Made by a program: the position numbers and the translations under genes. Below, piece by piece: positions 26,899 to 36,842 of a stretch of 64,000 bases of DNA. The stretch comes from Novosphingobium sp. (GTDB taxonomy: Bacteria > Pseudomonadota > Alphaproteobacteria > Sphingomonadales > Sphingomonadaceae). Each line of letters starts with the position of its first letter. The first letter of the stretch is position 1. The notes beneath the pieces are model-generated. The model did not search any database, had not been told where the DNA came from, and was given only the letters and a program-made list of their open reading frames with translations. The stretch lies in the NCBI GenBank assembly GCA_024236215.1, contig JACKKX010000005.1, forward strand, positions 124,001 to 188,000. The letters are read 5' to 3'.

Positions 26899-27182
26899 AA
26901 TGGACCTCGGCGCTGGCGATCTATTTCCTGTTCTGGGTGATGAGCGCGTTCTTCGTCCTGCCCTTCGGCGTGCGCACCCACGACGAGGCCGGGCTGGAGA
27001 AGGTAAAGGGGCAGGCGGACAGCGCTCCGGCCGAATTCAACCCCCGCAAGATCGCAAAACGGGCCACCCTGCTGTCACTCGTGCTGTTTGGCCTGTTCTA
27101 TCTGAACTACGCTTTTGACTGGATCGGCACCGACGACATCGATTTCTACAAGGGCGGTGAGACCAGCGCAGCGGCAAGCTAG
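26895..27182 (+). CDS. DUF1467 family membrane protein
   Basis: 95 residues, ATGA overlap with RNase J. Two membrane helices (about 5-25 and 54-72) and the family phrase FVLPFGVRTHDEAG. Conserved downstream of rnj in Sphingomonadales as I recall it; function unknown. Its TAG stop and the stop of the convergent coiled-coil gene share the palindrome CTAG, so no spacer exists. Confidence 0.8.
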   Translation: MKWTSALAIYFLFWVMSAFFVLPFGVRTHDEAGLEKVKGQADSAPAEFNPRKIAKRATLLSLVLFGLFYLNYAFDWIGTDDIDFYKGGETSAAAS

Positions 27183-29686
27183 CCGCGCAATCGCTCGATC
27201 GCCTGGGCAAGGGCAACATAGAGCTTGCCCATATCCGATGAGAGAAGCGTCACACCCAGAGCATGCCCGTCGCGGGTGGAGAGCAACTGGCGCAGCATGG
27301 CCTCGAAATCGTGGATGTAGCGGCTGACGTGATCGCGGAATTCGCGGTCGTTCTCGTAAAGATTGCTGACCGCCCGCGCCTCGGGATTTTCCAGCAGCCG
27401 CACCGCGCGGCGGGTGAAAATGCCGCGATCGCCCCTGAGGTAAGAGGCCCAGGCGGTATCGGTTACTTCGGTGTCCATGGCCCGGGCGATGTCGATCGCG
27501 TTGGAATTGAGGCTTTCGGTAATCAGCGCCACGCGGCGGGCAAAGTCGTTGTCGACCTGTTCTTCCGCGCGGGCCCGGGCATGGGCGACGCGGCGTTCCA
27601 GATTGCCGGCCAGATCGTTGACCTTGGCCAGCTGATCGCGCAGCTGCACCGCCGCCTCGCGGCTGACCCCGGCGGCATGGCCCGCCGCCTCCTCAAGCTG
27701 ACCCGAGATCTCGGCAGCCTTGGCGCGAACCGCGCGATCGATCGCGGCGCCGCTTTCCTCGCCGATCCGCTCGGCCAGATCGGTGACCGCGCTTGCCAGG
27801 TCGCTGCGCGCCTGCTCGGCAAGCGCCGCGCTTTGTTCGCTGAGGTCCTTAAGCGAACCTTGCAGCGCCTCGATTGCCGAGGTCTTGTCCGACAAGGCGT
27901 GCCCAAGCTCGCGGGCGTGTTCGATCCCTTCGGCAAGCCCGGACTTGCTGGCCGCGACATGGTCCAGCAGCGATTCGCCAAGCGTGACGGCATTGCGAGC
28001 CGCAGCGCCCAGCGCCTGCACACGCTCGTCGAACTGCGCCAGCCGCGTTTCGCCAGCGGCGAGGGCGGCAGGGAGGTCTTCTTCGCTGTGCGTCACGCTG
28101 GCACGGATCAGCTCGAGCAGACGCACCGAATTGTCGGTGAGGCCCGCGATCGCCTTGTCGGTTCCCGACAACGCCTCGCGACTGGCCACCAGCTTTTCGG
28201 CCAGAACGGTCAGGCTCGCCCCGATTGCCCCTTCGGCTTCGCCGCCGTGGGCCGCGATTTCGTTCATGCGGGCGGCATAGTCGCCAAGCTGGGTGCCGAT
28301 CGCTTCGCTGTGCGCGCGGAAGGCTTCGGCCTGTTCGCGCTGGGCTGCCATCTGCGCTTCGAGCCGTTCGCCGAATTCGGCGTGGCGGGCTTCGAAATCG
28401 GCACGGCGGCGGTCGATTTCCTCGGCGAAAACACGGTCGCGTTCGGCCATGCGCGCATCGATCTCTTCAGCTTCCTCGGTCAGCGCGGCGATGCGGCGGC
28501 GGGCAGAGACCATCGCCTGTTCGTCGATCTCGCCCACACGCGAAACCGCCTGGCGGAGATCCTCCTCGAGCGAGGCCACGGCGCGGCGCCAGGCATCGAG
28601 CGCCTGGCCTTCGCCTTCGCGCAGCGACCGGGCAATCGCGCCGCTTTCGTCGCGCACTGCGGTAAGCCGCGCGCGCAGCGAGGTAAGGCTTTCCGCCTCG
28701 CTAACATCAAGCAGTTTGCGAACCTCTTCAAGTTCGTCGCCCAGTGCCTTGGCGCGGGTGCGGATCGCGGCCAGCGCCTCGATCTCCTGAGCATCGAGCT
28801 GGGTACGGAATTCCTCGCCGCCTTGCGCCAGCGAAGCGAAGCGCTGCGACGTTATGGCTTCAAGCTGGTCGGCCTGCTGGGTAAATTCGGCGAGGGTCTT
28901 TTCGACCAGCTCGCGCAGCACCTGGACCTGACGCTCGCTCGCCTGCCCGAACTGGTTGAGCTTGTTGAAGCCCTGAACCATTTCCTCGATCTGCGAATGC
29001 GCGGTGCGGCCGGCCGTGGCGATGTTGTTGGTTACGTCCTTGGCCGAGCTGGCGATCACCGGAAGCTGGAAACGCAGCTTTTCCATATTGTCGAGCGCGG
29101 CCTCGCTGACCGTGCCGATCGCCTCGATCCGCGCGCCGTTGTCGGAGACCAGCCCGGCCAGACGGTCTGCATGTTCGGACAGACGCTCACCGGCCACGCG
29201 GCCCAGCGCATCGAGATCGCGGCCCTGGGCAGCCAGGAATTCGCGGGCCAGGCTGAGTTCGCGGTTGACGGTGGACAGACGGGCTTCAAGTCGGGTGGAT
29301 TCTTCGCCCAGCACCCGCGCCGCTTCGCCAAAGCGCAGCGCCTCGCGGCGCGAATTGCGCATCGCCAGCAGCCAGACAACCGCCAGCAACAGCGGAGGGA
29401 CTGACCAGTCACGGATCCACACCGTCCACTGCGCCAGATCGCCGCCTGCCTGCATCGCCGTGAGGTTGGCCATTACGAACAGCGCGGTCCATCCGACCGC
29501 AACGGCAAGAGTAAACATCAGCGCGAGGAGGGCGGGCCAGCGGCGCGGCGCGGGCACGGGCGTATCCTCGTCTTCCCATTGTTCCTCTTCCACCGGCAGA
29601 GGTTCCGCCGCTGGATTGGTCTGCTCCTCGCCAGCACCCTCAGGCCCGGCGGCGTCGATGGCGCGAATGCGCGATCCCCCAGTCAT
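27179..29686 (-). CDS. TipN-like two-TM giant coiled-coil protein
   Basis: 835 residues. Layout: acidic/proline-rich cytoplasmic head (1-48), two membrane helices (about 50-73 and 94-108), then roughly 600 residues of Ala/Glu/Arg/Leu-rich coiled coil with almost no proline, and a compact C-terminal domain (about 700-835; WASYLRGDRGIFTRRAVRLL, YIHDFEAMLRQLLS). This is the architecture of TipN, the new-pole marker of Caulobacter, which also has two N-terminal TM segments and a long coiled coil. The assignment rests on architecture, not alignment. Start is ATG 29686. It faces the Hpt-like gene across a 69-base divergent promoter region. Confidence 0.6.
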   Translation of the reverse strand: MTGGSRIRAIDAAGPEGAGEEQTNPAAEPLPVEEEQWEDEDTPVPAPRRWPALLALMFTLAVAVGWTALFVMANLTAMQAGGDLAQWTVWIRDWSVPPLLLAVVWLLAMRNSRREALRFGEAARVLGEESTRLEARLSTVNRELSLAREFLAAQGRDLDALGRVAGERLSEHADRLAGLVSDNGARIEAIGTVSEAALDNMEKLRFQLPVIASSAKDVTNNIATAGRTAHSQIEEMVQGFNKLNQFGQASERQVQVLRELVEKTLAEFTQQADQLEAITSQRFASLAQGGEEFRTQLDAQEIEALAAIRTRAKALGDELEEVRKLLDVSEAESLTSLRARLTAVRDESGAIARSLREGEGQALDAWRRAVASLEEDLRQAVSRVGEIDEQAMVSARRRIAALTEEAEEIDARMAERDRVFAEEIDRRRADFEARHAEFGERLEAQMAAQREQAEAFRAHSEAIGTQLGDYAARMNEIAAHGGEAEGAIGASLTVLAEKLVASREALSGTDKAIAGLTDNSVRLLELIRASVTHSEEDLPAALAAGETRLAQFDERVQALGAAARNAVTLGESLLDHVAASKSGLAEGIEHARELGHALSDKTSAIEALQGSLKDLSEQSAALAEQARSDLASAVTDLAERIGEESGAAIDRAVRAKAAEISGQLEEAAGHAAGVSREAAVQLRDQLAKVNDLAGNLERRVAHARARAEEQVDNDFARRVALITESLNSNAIDIARAMDTEVTDTAWASYLRGDRGIFTRRAVRLLENPEARAVSNLYENDREFRDHVSRYIHDFEAMLRQLLSTRDGHALGVTLLSSDMGKLYVALAQAIERLRG

Positions 29687-29709
29687 GGCGGCAGTTTACC
29701 ATGTAAGTG

Positions 29710-29731
29710 CCCGGATTAAACCCCGGATTAA
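29710..29731. promoter_or_regulatory. Direct repeat in divergent promoter region
   Basis: CCCGGATTAA occurs twice (29710-29719 and 29722-29731), spaced 12 bases start to start, in the 69-base gap between the TipN-like and Hpt-like genes. The two TTAA halves are 8 bases apart; the CtrA consensus is TTAA-N7-TTAA, so it is one base off. Probably an operator, regulator unknown. Confidence 0.4.
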
Positions 29732-29755
29732 CCAGATTACCCTAAGTCTGAACTC

Positions 29756-30058
29756 ATGGCCTATGAAGCTGGAGCCCTCGATGCCACTCTTGCCGCCGCG
29801 GCGGGCGAAGACGGCGCGCTCTTTTTGGAGCTGCGTCAGGCATTTATAGAGAGCTGCGCGCGCCAGCTCGATCTCCTCAGGCGCTCGCGTTGCGATGGCA
29901 ACTGGCGCATGGCGGCGCTGCGCCTCAAGGGGCTTGCCGCCAGTTTTCACGCCGATGCGCTGCTCGAACTGGCTGAAGAGACGATCGACGCGGCCCCGGG
30001 CGAACCCACGGTGATACGCCGCATCCAGACCTGGCTCGACGAATTTTCGGCCGCCTGA
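29756..30058 (+). CDS. Hpt-like four-helix protein lacking the phospho-accepting histidine
   Basis: 100 residues, helical throughout. The segment AALRLKGLAASF (residues 53-64) matches the Hpt core H-x-L-K-G-x-A, but the position of the active histidine is Leu55. It therefore cannot be phosphorylated in the usual way. The LKG turn and overall length are those of an Hpt domain. It may act as a docking or competitor protein. It opens a plus-strand cluster with an unknown membrane protein, an unknown helical protein and a kinase-like protein that also lacks its histidine. Confidence 0.55.
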   Translation: MAYEAGALDATLAAAAGEDGALFLELRQAFIESCARQLDLLRRSRCDGNWRMAALRLKGLAASFHADALLELAEETIDAAPGEPTVIRRIQTWLDEFSAA

Positions 30059-30153
30059 CGCTTCGGCTTGGCAGGGGCCGTAGCCTCGCCTAGAAGCACC
30101 GCGAAGTTCCCAGCCAGGCGCGGAGAAGAACGCTGCGGGTCGCCCTTTTGACC

Positions 30154-31341
30154 ATGATGGAAGCTGCTGCCCCCGGCAGCACGGCGCCGCGCGCCTTCCT
30201 CAACATCGGCGGGATTTCGGTCGCCCGGCTCCAGCTGGGCATCGTCCTTGCGCTGCGCTGTGAGCGGATCGTCTGTCTGGCGGCGGCCATGGAACCGGAA
30301 ATCGTCGCCCTGCAGCACGCCGCCGAAGCTGCGGGTGCGCAGTTCCACCTGATTTCCTCCCCGCGCCAGCTGGTCGGTCTGGTTACCGCCACCGACGAAG
30401 TTGTGGCACTTGGCGATGGACTGTTCGTTTCCGCTGCCGAAGCGGTGGGGCTGCTCGAACAGGGCCAGGCCGTTCTGGTCCAACCGATCGAGCAGGGCCT
30501 GGCAGCCGGGTTCGAGCGCATCGATTTGAACCACGCGGCAGCCGGCGCGATGCGCATTCCTGGCCGTCTGGTTGAGCGGATTGCCGATCTTCCCTCCGAT
30601 TGCGATGCGGCCTCGGCGTTGCAGCGCATCGCCTTGCAGGCTGGAATCCGCCAGCGCCCGATCCCGGCTCCGCTCGATGCGGGTCTGTTCTGGATGCTGA
30701 TCCGCAGCGAGGATGAGGCGCATGCCGTCGAACCGCTGTGGATCCGCCGTCGCACCCGCGATGACGAGAGCCGGAGTCCATCGCGGCTGATCGCGCTGAT
30801 GGCGGTCCGAGGGTTCGGACCTGCCTTGTTGCACGCCGGAAGCGGACCGAATGCCGCGGTGATTGCCGCGGCTTTCCTTGCCTTGCTGGGGGCGGGGGCA
30901 GGGTGGCTTGGCTGGATTGCGACGGCGTTTGTCCTGCTGGCCGGTGGATGGGTCTTGCGCGAAATTGCCGTGTTGCTTGCCCGGATCGAAGCGGACCCGC
31001 TGGCCATTCCGCGCCGACTTGACAGCAAACTGGTTTATGGCTGGCTGCTCGATGCGATCATGGTCCTGGTCGCCGGATGGAGCCTTCCCGTCAGCGCGGG
31101 CGCCGGACTGGGAGACCGCTTCTTTGCGCCATTCATGCTTGCGGGCTTGTTGCGGCTGATGCCGCGTATCGGCAGCGGGCGCATTGCTGCCTGGATGGGG
31201 GACCGGGCCCTGCTGGCCGGGCTGCTTTGTGCGGCGAGTCTATCAGGGCTGGGGATCGCGGCAATCGAGGCGGCGGCGGCGATCGTGCTGATTTCCGGTT
31301 TTGCCTTGCCTCGCGGGCAGTTGCGGATAACGCAGCCTTAA
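30154..31341 (+). CDS. Nucleotidyltransferase-like domain fused to membrane domain (unknown)
   Basis: About 396 residues from ATG 30154 (a second ATG follows at 30157; neither has a clear ribosome site). Residues 1-200 look like a Rossmann-type alpha/beta domain similar in rhythm to sugar/CTP nucleotidyltransferases (strands around ERIVCLAAAM, QFHLISS, DEVVALGDGLFV). Residues about 225-395 hold five or six membrane helices. The layout recalls bifunctional enzymes that pair a nucleotidyltransferase with a CDP-alcohol phosphatidyltransferase, but the DGxxAR...GxxxD motif of the latter is not present, and neither is a clear GxGxR nucleotide loop. Possibly a degenerate descendant. Function not assigned. 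Confidence 0.55.
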   Translation: MMEAAAPGSTAPRAFLNIGGISVARLQLGIVLALRCERIVCLAAAMEPEIVALQHAAEAAGAQFHLISSPRQLVGLVTATDEVVALGDGLFVSAAEAVGLLEQGQAVLVQPIEQGLAAGFERIDLNHAAAGAMRIPGRLVERIADLPSDCDAASALQRIALQAGIRQRPIPAPLDAGLFWMLIRSEDEAHAVEPLWIRRRTRDDESRSPSRLIALMAVRGFGPALLHAGSGPNAAVIAAAFLALLGAGAGWLGWIATAFVLLAGGWVLREIAVLLARIEADPLAIPRRLDSKLVYGWLLDAIMVLVAGWSLPVSAGAGLGDRFFAPFMLAGLLRLMPRIGSGRIAAWMGDRALLAGLLCAASLSGLGIAAIEAAAAIVLISGFALPRGQLRITQP

Positions 31342-31353
31342 CCAAAACGGACT

Positions 31354-32331
31354 ATGGCCGATGCCATGAACCAGCATGCTGCCCAACCTGTTTCCGCCGC
31401 GCAGATCGAGACGACCCTGTGCGACGAATTGGCGCACGGCGATGCCCTGATCGGCACAATCGCGCCGATCCTGCGTCACCTGCTTGCCAACGACGAGCAC
31501 TCGGTGTTCGGTGACGAGATCATCGCCCGGGTCCGGGGCACGATGGCCGATCTCGCCAGGCAGTTGCTCGATGCCCGCGCCAATGCTTCGGGTGACGGCA
31601 ACGATGGTGAGCACGATCCCGATGATGTTACCGTACTGGTCGAACGCTTTGTGGCTCATCCCGGTTTTCTCCACCACATCCACGCGCTCGCGCTGGAATG
31701 GCAGCTGACCGAGCGGCTCCAGGCGCGTCTGGCTCTCGATCCGGTGCTCTCGCCGCTGCTCCAGTCGCTGATTGCCTCGAGCGAGCCCGGTGTCGCGGCG
31801 GCGGCGATGGCGCTGCTTGCGGCGCAGGCGCGGTTTGCCCAGGCCCAGCGGCGGATGAAGCTGTCGTTGACCGAACTTCCCGGCGATCTGCTGCATGCCG
31901 CGCTGGTGGCGCTGCGCGGTCTTTCCGATCATGACCCGGAGAGTCAGGCGCAGATTGCCGCGGCAGAATCCGAAATTCGCGGCCGCTATGATGAAAGCCG
32001 CAGCCGCCTGGGTCTGACCGCGCGGCTGGTCGCGGCAATGGGCGGAGGCGCGACTGCTGCGCTGTCCGTTTCCCACGCCGGGGTTTGCATCTTCCTGACC
32101 GCGCTCTCGCTCGGTTCCGGCCAGGACCGCGATATTGCCGTGCTGACGACTAATGAGGGGCAACTCGCGCGGCTTGCCCTTGCCCTGCGTGCAGCCGGGC
32201 TCAAACCCGCGACGATTGAAGAGCAGTTCGTTTCGCTCCACCCCGATGTTACCCTGCCCGAAGGCTTTGAGCAGGTCGGAGCCGATCGCGCCGCGGCGCT
32301 GCTGGCGCGCAGCGCGGCTTTTGCGGGTTGA
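31354..32331 (+). CDS. Helical repeat-like protein, unknown function
   Basis: 325 residues from ATG 31354, 12 bases after the previous gene. No signal peptide or membrane helix is obvious. The sequence is rich in Ala/Leu/Glu helices (e.g. SSEPGVAAAAMALLAAQARF), suggesting an alpha-solenoid. I do not recognise a family. It ends 10 bases before the kinase-like gene and probably works with it, judging only from spacing and order. Confidence 0.55.
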   Translation: MADAMNQHAAQPVSAAQIETTLCDELAHGDALIGTIAPILRHLLANDEHSVFGDEIIARVRGTMADLARQLLDARANASGDGNDGEHDPDDVTVLVERFVAHPGFLHHIHALALEWQLTERLQARLALDPVLSPLLQSLIASSEPGVAAAAMALLAAQARFAQAQRRMKLSLTELPGDLLHAALVALRGLSDHDPESQAQIAAAESEIRGRYDESRSRLGLTARLVAAMGGGATAALSVSHAGVCIFLTALSLGSGQDRDIAVLTTNEGQLARLALALRAAGLKPATIEEQFVSLHPDVTLPEGFEQVGADRAAALLARSAAFAG

Positions 32332-32341
32332 TTGGATCGCT

Positions 32342-33781
32342 GTGGCGGAAAGCGCAGTTCTTGCCCGGGCGCAGGTCGATGGCGCGGACCGCCTGGTCAG
32401 CGCGGAAGACCCGCTTGCCGGTCTGCAACTGCGCTGCGGGGGCGAGATACCCGGAACGATTGCAATACCGGCCTTGCTCGAACTGGTCCGCAAGGCGCGT
32501 CACTACGGCTTGAAGCTTGCGCGGACGATCCGGGCCAACGATGGCAGCGATCAGATTTCCGCCTGGATCGAGGTCGTTCCCGAAGCGGAAGGGGCGTGCA
32601 AGGTGGCGCTGCGTTCGTGGCAGGCATCGCCGCTCCCGCCCGAGGACCTGGCGGCAACTGCACAGCACCGCGCGGCGATCGAGCGCGGCCTGGCCGAATT
32701 GACCGCCCAGCTCGATGCCGGGCAATGCGTGCTGGCTTGCGAGAGCGAGGCCGCCGATCTTGCCGCGCTGATCGCCGAAATGCGGGGCGGGATTGGTCGG
32801 CCATGGACCGATTTCATCACCATCGAAGGCTCGGATCATCATCAGCCGCTACATTGGCGCCTGCTCGATGGCGCCAAGGTGAAGATCGAGGGGTCGCCGC
32901 GCGACTGGAAAGCCAGCCTGTTGCCGCGCCAGCTTGCCGGAGGCGAGCCAGCCGGATTCGAGCTGTGTCTTGTTGCCGATCGGCCAGCCAACGAAGTGAA
33001 ACCGGCCATCTCGGCGGCTAGCGCTCCAGCCATGCCCAGCAACGGGCCGGGATTGGTCGGGCGCGATATTGCGCCCGTGCTGCGTCAGCCGATCGCCCGG
33101 ATCATCGCCAACGCCGAAACGATCCGCACCCGGCTTGCCGGGCCACTGGCCGAGGAATACAGCCAGTACGCCGCCGATATTGCTACGGCGGGGCAGCACC
33201 TGCTTTCGCTGGTCGAGGACCTTGCCGATCTGGAGGTCGTCGAGGCCGAGGACTTCAACACCGCGCCCGACCGGATCGATCTGGCCGATGTTGCGCGCCG
33301 CGCCGCGGGCATCCTGGGGGTGCGGGCGCAGGAACGCGGGATCGCGATCGACGCACCCAAGCTGGGCGAGCATCTTCCGGCGATTGCCGAGTTTCGGCGG
33401 GTCTTGCAGGTTCTGCTCAACCTCGTCGGCAACGCGATCCGCTATTCGCCGGAGAATTCACAGGTCTGGATCCGCCTTGAGGACGCCGGCGCGCGGGCGC
33501 GCGTGGTGGTGGCCGATCAGGGACCGGGGATCGGACTGGATCAGCAGGCACGGCTGTTCGAAAAGTTCGAGCGCCTTGGCCGCAGCGACGAGCAGGGCTC
33601 GGGATTGGGGCTCTACATCTCGCGGCGTCTGGCGCGGGCGATGGGCGGCGATCTGACGGTCGAAAGCGCACCCGGGCAGGGCGCACGCTTCATTCTCGAT
33701 GTCCCGGCCGATCTCTTGGCGCTAGCCCCGACGACCGCGCAGCACCCAGATCAGTCCGGCGCCGACAGCAGCCCAGATTGA
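32342..33781 (+). CDS. Histidine-kinase-like protein with His-to-Pro change in the H-box
   Basis: 479 residues from GTG 32342. The N-terminal 230 residues show a PAS-like alpha/beta pattern without clear identity. The dimerisation helix follows at about 238-300: where kinases have S-H-E-L-R-T-P-L, this protein reads A-P-V-L-R-Q-P-I, so the phospho-accepting histidine is Pro245. The ATP-binding domain is intact: N-box LVGNAIRYSPE, G1 DQGPGIG, F-box LFEKFERLG, G2 GSGLGLYI. It can probably bind ATP but cannot autophosphorylate in the usual way. No membrane helix, so cytosolic. The last 20 residues are encoded in overlap with the convergent small membrane gene. Confidence 0.7.
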   Translation: MAESAVLARAQVDGADRLVSAEDPLAGLQLRCGGEIPGTIAIPALLELVRKARHYGLKLARTIRANDGSDQISAWIEVVPEAEGACKVALRSWQASPLPPEDLAATAQHRAAIERGLAELTAQLDAGQCVLACESEAADLAALIAEMRGGIGRPWTDFITIEGSDHHQPLHWRLLDGAKVKIEGSPRDWKASLLPRQLAGGEPAGFELCLVADRPANEVKPAISAASAPAMPSNGPGLVGRDIAPVLRQPIARIIANAETIRTRLAGPLAEEYSQYAADIATAGQHLLSLVEDLADLEVVEAEDFNTAPDRIDLADVARRAAGILGVRAQERGIAIDAPKLGEHLPAIAEFRRVLQVLLNLVGNAIRYSPENSQVWIRLEDAGARARVVVADQGPGIGLDQQARLFEKFERLGRSDEQGSGLGLYISRRLARAMGGDLTVESAPGQGARFILDVPADLLALAPTTAQHPDQSGADSSPD

Positions 33782-33937
33782 TCCATAGAGCGTCCAGGCC
33801 CGGTCAGCGAGCATGAAGCTCTCAGGCGGCCACATGATGATGCCGAGCCCCTGAAGCGCCCAGAACAGCCCGGAAAAGACCATCAGGCCGCCCACGATCA
33901 TGTAGAGCACCCGAAGCAGATTGCGCAGCGCTTCCAT
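33722..33937 (-). CDS. Small membrane protein, unknown
   Basis: 71 residues from ATG 33937, with ribosome site GGGGAG four to five bases upstream. Two membrane helices (about 9-30 and 46-66) with a WPPES loop between. An open frame extends upstream to 34198, but that part is out-of-frame sequence of the gltA end and not protein-like. Its last 60 bases overlap the end of the kinase-like gene on the other strand. Function unknown. Confidence 0.65.
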   Translation of the reverse strand: MEALRNLLRVLYMIVGGLMVFSGLFWALQGLGIIMWPPESFMLADRAWTLYGSIWAAVGAGLIWVLRGRRG

Positions 33938-33977
33938 AACTCTCCCCTTTAATTTGGGAGAGCTTATCGGCCCGCGA

Positions 33978-34034
33978 TCAGCGCTTGTCGAGCGGCACGT
34001 AATCGCGCTGGGCCGGGCCGGTGTAGAGCTGGCG
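33978..34034 (-). pseudogene. Fossil 3' end of a second citrate synthase gene
   Basis: Read on the minus strand, 18 codons plus stop spell RQLYTGPAQRDYVPLDKR, a citrate synthase C-terminus. The intact gltA, ending 62 bases away, closes with the same segment differing at three residues (T for A, GQ for DK). Homology stops abruptly just before RQLYTG on the fossil. Only this tail remains, so a second gltA copy was lost or its end was captured by recombination. Confidence 0.7.
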
Positions 34035-34041
34035 CTGCCAG

Positions 34042-34063
34042 CCGGTTTCTCTCGAGAAACCGG
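34042..34063 (-). terminator. Hairpin downstream of gltA
   Basis: Perfect stem CCGGTTTCT / AGAAACCGG with a 4-base loop, 33 bases past the gltA stop and just before the fossil gltA tail. Suitable as a terminator, though no T-run follows. Confidence 0.45.
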
Positions 34064-34095
34064 ATCGACGGCATTCGCCTGCGCCGACGCTGTGC

Positions 34096-35379
34096 TTAGC
34101 GTTGGCCTAGCGGCACGTAGTCGCGCTGGGTCGGGCCGGTGTAGAGCTGGCGCGGGCGCCCGATCTTCTGGCCGGGATCGCTGATCATCTCGTTCCACTG
34201 CGCCACCCAGCCGACCGTGCGGGCCAGCGCGAACAGCGCGGTGAACATGGTGGTCGGGAAACCGATCGCCGAGAGGATCACGCCCGAATAGAAATCGACG
34301 TTGGGGAATAGCTTCTTCTCGATGAAATAATCATCGTGCAGGGCCATTTCCTCAAGCCGCAGCGCCACCTCGAACACCGGATCGGTGACCTTGAGCGCCT
34401 CGAACACCTCACGCACGGTCTGCTGCATCACGGTCGCGCGCGGATCGTAGTTCTTGTAGACGCGGTGGCCGAAGCCCATCAGGCGGAACGGATCGTTCTT
34501 GTCCTTGGCGCGTTCGATATAGTGCGCGATGCGATCGGGCGTACCGATCTCGTGCAGCATGTTGAGCGCGGCCTCGTTGGCGCCGCCGTGTGCCGGGCCC
34601 CACAGGCAGGCGATCCCCGCCGCGATGCAGGCAAAGGGGTTTGCGCCCGACGAACCGGCCAGCCGGACCGTGCTGGTCGAGGCGTTCTGCTCGTGATCGG
34701 CATGGAGGATGAAAATCCGGTCCATCGCCTTTTCGACAGCGGGAACAACCTCGTATTCCTCAGCCGGGACGCCGAAGGTCATGCGCAGGAAGTTGCCGGT
34801 GTAGGACAGCTTGTTGTCCGGATACATGAACGGCTGGCCGACCGAATACTTGTAGGCCATCGCCGCGATCGTCGGCATTTTGGCGATCAGCCGGTGGCTG
34901 CTGATCTTGCGGTGGACGGGATCGGAAATGTCGGTCGAATCGTGATAGAACGCCGAAAGTGCGCCCACCACGCCGCACATGATCGCCATCGGGTGCGCAT
35001 CGCGGCGGAAGCCGCGATAGAAGGTCGCCAGCTGTTCGTGCAGCATGGTGTGGCGGCTGATCGTGGTCTCGAACTGGTCCAGCTCGGCCTGGCCCGGCAA
35101 TTCGCCGTTGAGCAGCAGGTAGCTGACTTCCATGAAGCTCGAATGCTCGGCCAGCTGGCCGATTGGATAGCCACGGTGGAGCAGCACGCCTTCGTCGCCA
35201 TCGATATAGGTCAGCGCGCTTTCGCAGGCCGCAGTGCTGGTGAAGCCGGGGTCATAGGTGAAAGCGCCCGATTGGCCATAAAGCTTGCGGATATCGACAA
35301 CATCGGGTCCGACAGTGCCGGAAATCACCGGGAGATCATAATCCTTGCCGCCAAGGCTCAGCTTTGCCTGATCGCTCAC
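34096..35379 (-). CDS. gltA: Citrate synthase
   Basis: 427 residues, type II hexameric citrate synthase condensing oxaloacetate and acetyl-CoA. The start is GTG 35379 (VSDQAKLSL), preceded by GAGGAGAA; an upstream ATG at 35394 would lie in the ribosome site. Catalytic histidines and aspartate lie in [28 protein letters not shown] and the C-terminal DFYSGV region. It follows gltX by 11 bases, so the two form an operon. Confidence 0.96.
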
Positions 35380-35390
35380 AATACTTCTCC

Positions 35391-36842
35391 TCAAACCTGT
35401 ACTTTGCCGGTGGCCTGCGCGGCAATGCGCGCAAGGCTCTCGTCCCGGCCAAGAAGTACCAAGACATCGAATATACCTGGGGAAGTCGTTTGACCCGTTA
35501 GCGCGGCCCTAAGGGGTTGTGCAAGCTTGCCGAGTCCCAGGCCAAGCTCTTCCGCCATGCCCTTGAGCAGGCCTTCGAGCGCTTCGAGTGTCCATTCATC
35601 GCTGCCGGCGATCCGGTCAAGGATCCGGCCAAGCAACGCGCGCGCCTCGTCACCCAGAAGCGCTTCGGCCTTGGGATCGATCGCCAGCGGGCGCTTGGCG
35701 AACAGGAACGCGGCGCCGGCAGCAAGTTCGTTGAGATCCCTGGCGCGCACCTTGAGTACCGGCATGGCGCGGGCCAGCAGGTCAGGATCGGCCTCGCCCG
35801 CCATGCGCGGGGCGACCAGTCCGGCCAGCCGGGCATCGTCGGCCTCGCGCAGGTAATGCCCATTGAGGTTGAGCAGCTTGGCCATGTCAAACCGTGCCGC
35901 GCCCTTGCCGACGTGCGCGATATCGAACCACTCGACCGCCTGTTCTCGGCCGATGATCTCGTCATCGCCATGGCCCCAGCCGAGGCGGAGCAGATAGTTG
36001 AACAGTGCTTCGGGCAGGATTCCCATCTCGTCGCGATAGGCATCGACGCCCAGCGCGCCGTGACGTTTGGAAAGCTTGGCTCCATCGGCGCCATGGATCA
36101 GCGGCACGTGGCCATAGACCGGATCGGGCCAGCCGCCCTCAACGGCGTCCATCGCGCGGATGATCAGCAGCTGGCGGAAGGCATTGTTGATGTGATCGTC
36201 GCCGCGGATCACGTGGGTTACGCCCATATCGTGATCGTCGACAACCACCGCGAGCATATAGGTGGGAGTGCCATCGGAACGCAGCAGGATGAAATCGTCG
36301 AGCTCGGCGTTGCTGACGGTGATCGCGCCCTGAACCTGATCGTCGATGGTGGTCTCGCCATCGCGCGGCGCCTTGATACGCACTACGAAAGGGCGATCCT
36401 GGGGCAGGGTAGCGGGATCTGCGTCGCGCCATTCGCTGTGGATGCGGAACGGGCGGCGCTCGGCCTGGGCAGCTTCGCGGCGGGCGGCGAGATCTTCCTG
36501 GGTCAGGTAGCAGCGATAGGCATGGCCGGAGGCGAGCAGCCGGTGCGCCACCTCGGCGTGGCGATCCGAGCGCGCGAACTGGAAGGTGGCGGGTTCATCG
36601 CCCATCAGACCCAGCCACTCGAGCCCGTCGAAGATTGCCGCGATCGCGGGTTCGGTGGAGCGGGCGCGATCGGTATCCTCGATCCGCAGCAGGTATTTGC
36701 CGCCATGATGGCGGGCGAACAGCCAATTGAACAGCGCGGTGCGCGCTCCGCCGATGTGCAGGAAACCGGTGGGAGAAGGGGCAAACCGCGTGACCACGCC
36801 GCGACCGCCTGTCGCTGCCGGGGTTACGCTCGCGCTTGCCAT
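35391..36842 (-). CDS. gltX: Glutamate-tRNA ligase
   Basis: 483 residues from ATG 36842 ([10 protein letters not shown]). Class I aminoacyl-tRNA synthetase. The HIGH motif appears as FLHIGGART and the KMSKS motif as KLSKRHG, both normal for bacterial GluRS. A longer frame reaching 36953 overlaps the comEC start and is not conserved-looking. Only 28 bases separate its start from the divergent comEC. Confidence 0.95.

Follow-up and report, generated by a model that had tools for sequence, protein, structure and literature searches.

We analyzed a 64,000-nucleotide stretch of the genome of Novosphingobium sp. (contig JACKKX010000005.1, positions 124,001 to 188,000; hereafter "the window"), in which a cluster of four genes encodes, in order, an Hpt-like protein, a membrane-like protein, a diverged DUF2336 protein, and a relative of histidine kinases. 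This last protein has lost the phosphate-accepting histidine of its H-box and has kept its ATP site. Tree and gene order show that it is an ATP-site-bearing pseudokinase derived from a PAS-type histidine kinase that was paired with a DUF2336 protein. Elsewhere the same genome encodes a protein with the mirror-image defect, L213, and thus holds both ATP-only and His-only kinase-type proteins. We tentatively propose that the window kinase phosphorylates partners of the L213 family, the two proteins acting as a split histidine kinase; the sequences suggest this arrangement, to which we give somewhat less than an even chance.

The kinase-like protein (479 amino acids; GTG start, 32342–33781, + strand) comprises an N-terminal region of ∼240 amino acids, a HisKA domain that contains Pro245, and an intact HATPase_c domain. 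Its H-box region, A-P-V-L-R-Q-P, was aligned with S-H-E-L-R-T-P of four His-bearing relatives, which places Pro245 on the histidine column. The codons of the former H-box, Pro245-Val-Leu-Arg-Gln-Pro250 (33074–33091, +), correspond to His-Glu-Leu-Arg-Thr-Pro in His-bearing relatives. An alternative start, TTG 32321, would renumber the proline as residue 252. In Pfam, the protein scored 97.9 bits for HATPase_c and 31.5 bits for HisKA, the latter above the cut-off, and the N, G1, F, and G2 motifs are all present. An original prediction, made from the letters of the window, had described a kinase with proline at 245 in the H-box and intact ATP motifs, and our data confirm both the position of the residue and the four motifs.

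The loss extends to nearly all orthologues that we aligned. A search of 196 genomes of the order with the third protein recovered the cluster in 57, and the final set of 97 kinase orthologues (the window and 96 genomes) includes 40 divergent members fetched with a profile of the front half of the kinase. The H-box column of this set reads P58 R12 G7 S4 Q3 E3 T2 N2 K2 A1 V1 D1 H1, with no histidine in 96 of 97. The lone histidine (G195, locus L185) lies in the context HALRSP, without an adjacent acidic residue and in a group in which the column varies, and is probably drift. Position 246 (V45 A44 S4 G2 I1 L1) is never Glu or Asp, and a motif of His, then Glu or Asp, then LR.P occurs in 0 of the 97. 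In a second set, the best 80 of 395 named relatives, which is biased to close ones (mostly Novosphingobium, other sphingomonads, and erythrobacters) and shares some genomes with the first, the column is proline in 81 of 81 sequences with the window included. The original prediction had proposed such an alignment of homologues for both the kinase and the Hpt-like protein; in the latter, the position aligned with the acceptor is never histidine.

The ATP site shows the opposite behavior. Asn360, Asn364, Asp392, Gly394, Phe406, Gly419, Gly421, and Gly423 are invariant in 97/97 orthologues; Gly396 is kept in 96, and the second F-box phenylalanine, Phe409, in 89. Among 22 window-type kinases scanned with Pfam, HATPase_c was found in all 22 and HisKA in 21. 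Ratios of nonsynonymous to synonymous substitution (dN/dS) were 0.07–0.20 for the kinase against six close relatives (L088, L089, L091, L094, L101, and L103) and 0–0.13 for the Hpt-like protein against six close relatives, and because these values are low, we conclude that selection maintains both proteins. One might still regard the two as dying remnants, since catalytic residues are lost, the kinase is unmatched in 9 of 113 family genomes, and one of these (G131) carries a remnant. Purifying selection, the invariant ATP site, and a gene order kept across genera refute this for the genomes read, and we consider it very improbable. The loss of the histidine is old, shared, and under selection; local decay is excluded, and the assignment as a histidine-less kinase is firm.

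A kinase of this kind could phosphorylate itself on another residue, or act as a plain ATPase or receiver phosphatase. The obvious acceptor would be His286 in the second helix, which is present in 94/97 orthologues. The four His-bearing relatives have it as well, so it would be an old residue of the fold and not a replacement, and we disfavored it as a new acceptor. As for a phosphatase, only 4/97 orthologues retain Thr in the phosphatase motif, with Gln there in 62. Taken together, these alternatives appear quite unlikely.

To place the origin of the kinase, we built a maximum likelihood tree (IQ-TREE; 222 columns, 60 kinase cores). The 20 window-type kinases were sister, with support 100, to L351, L352, and L353 from three other families of the order, all of which carry the canonical SHELRTPLNAIIGFAE H-box. 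The gene directly before each of the three is recognized by the profile of the third protein of the window (E 3e-4 to 9e-8) and scores 225–238 bits for Pfam DUF2336 and 154–174 bits for NCBIfam SpbR, below the cut-off of 400. Neither the Hpt-like nor the membrane gene was recognized at the L351–L353 loci. As the sister kinases carry SHELRTPLNAIIGFAE and stand behind a DUF2336 gene, a canonical kinase and a DUF2336 protein formed the ancestral unit, as tree and gene order show. Compared with these relatives, the window type has lost the acceptor His and the adjacent Glu, the phosphatase-type Thr is mostly gone, and the Ser before the H-box position is kept in 7/97. We take the wider kinase group to be PdhS/PleC/DivJ-like, on the basis of its motifs. 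In a class-wide search of 289 genomes, matches outside the family covered only the second half of the model, ∼177–286, with their end in the DHp domain and at E≥7e-15.

G053, a genome listed in the family of the window kinase, encodes, at a site apart from citrate synthase (the gene that flanks the cluster in the window), a DUF2336 protein and a kinase bearing SHELRTPLNAIIGFAE that scores 223 bits against the kinase profile. When added to the tree, this kinase joined L351–L353 (support 76–77), and the four were sister to the window type (support 100). The two G053 loci (L360 and L361) make up a candidate intermediate, in which a DUF2336 protein and a His-bearing kinase coexist with a partner already without N-box and G1. 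According to the original prediction, homologues with His at these positions would point to local decay. Such homologues do exist outside the His-less clade, namely L351–L353 and G053, but local decay is not indicated; they date the loss and do not make it local.

The mirror-image kinase is one of 13 HisKA matches in the window genome. L213 (also L221; 595 amino acids; G000:C5:74599–76383, – strand) is encoded ∼48 kb outside the window. It has an intact H-box and a Pfam HisKA score of 42.2 bits, and no HATPase_c match at E≤1. The histidine is conserved in 30/30 members of its family and in another 24/24 orthologues taken from other genomes, 21 of them identified by pattern and 3 by eye, 54/54 in total. 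N-box, G1, and G2 patterns occur in none of the first 30 members; the N-box is likewise absent from the further 24, of which two have a G1-like string and one (G053) has a G2-like string. Pfam recognized HisKA in 18/18 partner proteins and HATPase_c in 0/18. The kinase and partner profiles align over 268 columns (E 9.5e-11), with Pro245 on His370 of the partner, and the two are mutual best DHp matches within the window genome. DHp profiles and a FastTree of the genome's own kinases suggested that they are sister paralogues, which the wider IQ-TREE rejected. We also dropped a DUF2336-like N terminus for the partner, as its profile did not match the DUF protein of the window (probability 1%) and no Pfam match was found. 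Other HisKA matches of this genome include L209 (G000:C2), which has Tyr in its H-box (SYEFRTP) and which we take to be DivL-like, and L216, a CckA-like kinase (550 bits against a cut-off of 1000).

The layout of L213, a DHp domain plus a degenerate ATP domain, is also that of ChpT. The L213 family could thus act as ChpT-like phosphotransferases that receive phosphate from another kinase, with the window cluster independent of it. The partner gene adjoins unrelated-looking genes (judged by eye), in keeping with such independence. Against it, no HPTransfase (ChpT) match was found among 18 partner members at E≤1, yet 5 of the 22 window-type kinases gave weak ones, and the distribution of the partner tracks that of the window kinase. 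We regard this explanation as improbable.

Co-distribution was assessed in 113 sampled genomes of the family, which we take to be Sphingomonadaceae sensu lato, with presence called at E≤1e-10. Kinase and partner were both present in 104 genomes, the partner only in 2 (G131 and G193), the kinase only in 0, and neither in 7. Of the 104 kinases, 97 were read as lacking the H-box His motif, one (G053) was read with His, and six were unread. When the nine kinase-less genomes were searched again with looser limits, nothing came up besides the two partners and short matches that did not extend beyond the DHp region. Fisher's exact test on these counts, uncorrected for relatedness, gave 9e-10; the genomes are related, so the figure is not a probability.

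The nine kinase-less genomes and G053 differ in what they have kept at the citrate synthase locus. G131 has an intact partner, together with the Hpt-like and membrane genes and a kinase remnant of 43 codons at that locus. Only the membrane gene is kept there in G193, G181, G135, and G173. In G121 and G133 the membrane gene was not recognized there either, and in G105, G155, and G053 neither a cluster gene nor any other cluster neighbor was recognized. The partner orthologue of G193 (L310, G193:C1, 399 amino acids) retains the N-terminal domain and a remnant of the ATP domain, and its middle section, with the sensor and the His, is gone.

The split-kinase reading is favored by the invariance of the ATP site and by the distribution that kinase and partner share. 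The window kinase would bind ATP and, across a mixed dimer, phosphorylate the conserved His of an L213-family partner, which would then hand the phosphate to a response regulator. To judge from family resemblance, the other three products of the cluster (Hpt-like, nucleotidyltransferase-like membrane, and DUF2336) may be adaptors without catalytic activity that position the kinase or adjust its output, perhaps at the membrane or the cell pole. Several observations count in favor: the complementary Pfam defects of kinases and partners; the partner without its His section in the kinase-less genome G193; the kinase remnant at the syntenic place in G131; and the combination in G053 of a His-bearing kinase with a partner that lacks N-box and G1, which fits an intermediate. 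From the missing histidines, the original prediction had suggested that the system works by binding or ATP-driven shape change and not by phosphotransfer. The exclusion of phosphotransfer does not follow, given that the genome encodes a His-bearing kinase without a recognizable ATP site; the window kinase may therefore still phosphorylate a His on another protein.

Other observations weigh against a split kinase. The two genes are unlinked, and their products are not each other's closest relatives in the wider tree. G131 is a counterexample, in which an intact partner persists with a kinase reduced to a remnant. The G053 partner stands beside a complete His-bearing kinase and retains a G2-like string, and from this pairing it follows that the partner could initially lose its ATP site without a His-less kinase being present. 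The co-distribution may itself stem from shared descent and gene loss, and the partner could be the phosphotransferase considered above. Finally, a split kinase leaves the Hpt-like, membrane, and DUF2336 proteins unexplained. Three of these points, namely an Hpt-like protein that lacks His, a partner gene that is unlinked, and the G053 pairing, favor a DivL-like reading or leave the matter open.

If the window kinase were a DivL-like binding pseudokinase, its hairpin would bind a response regulator or another kinase, ATP would set its shape, and no phosphate would be moved; the Hpt-like protein would only bind, and the L213-family partner would be functionally unrelated. That the cluster encodes another protein lacking its phosphate-carrying residue suits such a binding module, as do newly conserved hairpin residues, Arg253 (93/97) and Asn257 (80/97), where the four His-bearing relatives have Ala and Phe. 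The kinase profile matches the DivL structure 4q20 (E 4e-23), although several ordinary kinases match better. PMC4211667 describes DivL as a protein with Tyr at the His position and no autokinase activity, which uses its kinase region to sense DivK~P. However, eight invariant ATP-site residues exceed the needs of a loose structural role, the window genome already has the Tyr-bearing L209, so that the kinase is not simply DivL, and the shared distribution of the His-only kinase is left unexplained. We consider DivL-like binding nearly as likely as the split kinase.

The split-kinase reading can be drawn more strictly, as an obligate split kinase that arose by complementary decay. The partner would have lost most of its ATP site first, a stage still visible in G053, and the window kinase its His afterward; loss of the ATP half would lead its counterpart to disappear too or to shed its His domain, with the disarmed enzymes and the DUF2336 protein serving as adaptors. 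We consider this fuller version less likely than not.

The assignment of the remaining cluster proteins is less secure. The Hpt-like protein (100 amino acids, 29756–30058, +) has a conserved core, RCDGNW..AA.RLKGLAASF, and a subthreshold Pfam Hpt match of 21.0 bits against a cut-off of 24.6; Hpt matches at E≤1 were obtained in 7 of 19 homologues scanned. Leu55 aligned with the Hpt-domain histidine (A-L-R-L-K-G against V-H-T-I-K-G), in an hhalign match with a probability of 0.2%, and Hpt kinship failed in profile-profile comparison, with no match to the Hpt set used. The column contains no His in 61 rows (M20 L14 Q6 W6 E5 A4 G2 T1 S1 Y1 gap1) or in an overlapping set of 78 rows (M41 L35 Q1 R1). 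Thus the predicted histidine-less Hpt stands as regards Leu55, which occupies the His position and is never His in homologues, but the Hpt label itself is a weak family assignment suggested by the subthreshold score. Solved-structure searches yielded no usable match for the Hpt-like and DUF2336-like proteins.

The second gene (open reading frame 30148–31341, ATG 30154, +) encodes a degenerate MobA-like nucleotidyltransferase head and a hydrophobic, membrane-like C-terminal half. Matches of the head to MobA-like NTP transferases reached E≤1 in 3/22 close homologues (best 0.0022), and matches to NTP_transf_3 reached E≤0.1 in 12/24 diverged homologues (best 2.9e-7). hhalign gave E 0.0014 with a probability of 18%, and among solved structures the profile of the protein matched 4mnd, a bifunctional IPCT-DIPPS, with an E value of 0.0044. 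These matches, although weak, bear out the predicted nucleotidyltransferase-like head with a membrane domain. By eye, the Gly-rich loop LAAGxSxRMGxxxK of true MobA-like members was not seen in the alignment, and the protein is probably a third disarmed enzyme.

The third gene (31354–32331, +) encodes a diverged DUF2336 (SpbR-like) protein, identified through a chain of profiles. SpbR binds PopZ. It is a named regulator of dimorphic development in Caulobacter, and the title of a report links it to cell pole development. The window protein has no direct Pfam DUF2336 match and none in NCBIfam at E≤1, and weak DUF2336 matches were found in 2/22 homologues. The chain runs through 33 open reading frames picked from 40 diverged loci by their position between the membrane gene and the kinase, although at least one frame (L202) overlaps the kinase; these match DUF2336 at a best E of 1.8e-37 in one direction and 1e-65 in the other. 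The window protein joins the chain at E 1.1e-14 with strong composition bias, and hhalign to DUF2336 proteins gave E 8.2e-8. The two genes that the original prediction had left as unknown are thus no longer wholly so, one having a MobA-like head and the other being a diverged DUF2336 gene.

All four genes run in the same direction, and their order is kept across genera. All 56 non-window loci have the kinase, third, and coiled-coil genes; 55 have the membrane gene and 53 have citrate synthase. An Hpt-like gene is recognizable in 45 and not in the other 11, one of which gave a weak profile match, and it was present in 15 of the 40 divergent loci. In the best 80 of 395 named relatives, the kinase, third, and membrane genes occur in 80/80, the Hpt-like gene in 77, and citrate synthase in 75. 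The convergent neighbor (34099–35394, –), which we take from its sequence to be citrate synthase, served as the syntenic anchor. An open reading frame for a small hydrophobic protein (33722–34198, –) overlaps the 3′ end of the kinase on the opposite strand. The divergent, conserved neighbor (27182–29686, –) encodes a large coiled-coil-like protein in which two hydrophobic segments can be made out by eye near the N terminus and no Pfam family scores above its cut-off; it is a speculative candidate for a TipN-like protein. The divergent intergenic region (29687–29755) carries TTAA-N8-TTAA. In the divergent promoters of 119 loci, TTAA-N7-TTAA occurs in 13 and the N8 form in 16, with ∼0.1 expected in mononucleotide shuffles. 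As the window promoter has the N8 form, we do not claim a CtrA-type site.

In the titles and abstract openings searched, the cluster was not named, no paper on DUF2336 or sphingomonad polarity was found, and only unrelated work on heterodimeric or degenerate kinases turned up. Our results describe a nearly whole bacterial family that has swapped a canonical kinase for one without the usual acceptor, its ATP site unchanged, and has retained a kinase with the opposite defect. A split kinase, if true, would show evolution by reciprocal loss, with intermediates; if no partner is phosphorylated, the protein would be a deeply conserved pseudokinase with an ATP site. DivJ-PleC-DivK control is degenerate or lost in Sphingomonadales, according to PMC2877005, and the kinase system may have taken over some of its role.

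Each cluster protein can be compared with a known system. The Hpt-like protein resembles Hpt domains in length, the LKG motif, and the trend of its Pfam scores; it differs in having no His, a score below the cut-off, and no profile-profile match. IPCT-DIPPS (CTP:inositol-1-phosphate cytidylyltransferase/CDP-alcohol transferase) and MobA-like enzymes likewise have a nucleotidyltransferase head, followed by a membrane-like half, but with the nucleotide loop not seen by eye and weak scores, activity of the window protein is doubtful. The third protein is a diverged DUF2336 relative of SpbR; the sister-family neighbors match both models, short of the SpbR cut-off, and the window protein has no direct match.

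The best-known bacterial histidine pseudokinase is DivL, which binds DivK~P and controls CckA. It and the window kinase have in common a kinase fold in which the His is replaced and the DHp and ATP domains are kept. DivL has Tyr at this site, whereas the window kinase and its orthologues have Pro and other residues, and the gene neighbors differ. In our tree, which does not contain Caulobacter DivL, the window kinase groups with the His-bearing L351–L353 (support 100), and the Tyr-bearing L209 falls outside. According to PMC4211667, DivL has no kinase or phosphatase activity and binds nucleotide weakly. A parallel for a divided reaction is CheA3/CheA4 of Rhodobacter sphaeroides, where, as PMC3591291 describes, an ATP-active protein without an acceptor His acts with a His protein without a kinase domain; the same paper estimates that 3.66% of HisKA proteins lack a HATPase domain, slightly under half of them with a phosphatase motif. 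That pair belongs to the CheA family, whereas the proteins described here are of the HisKA type, their domains degenerate and not missing, and their genes unlinked.

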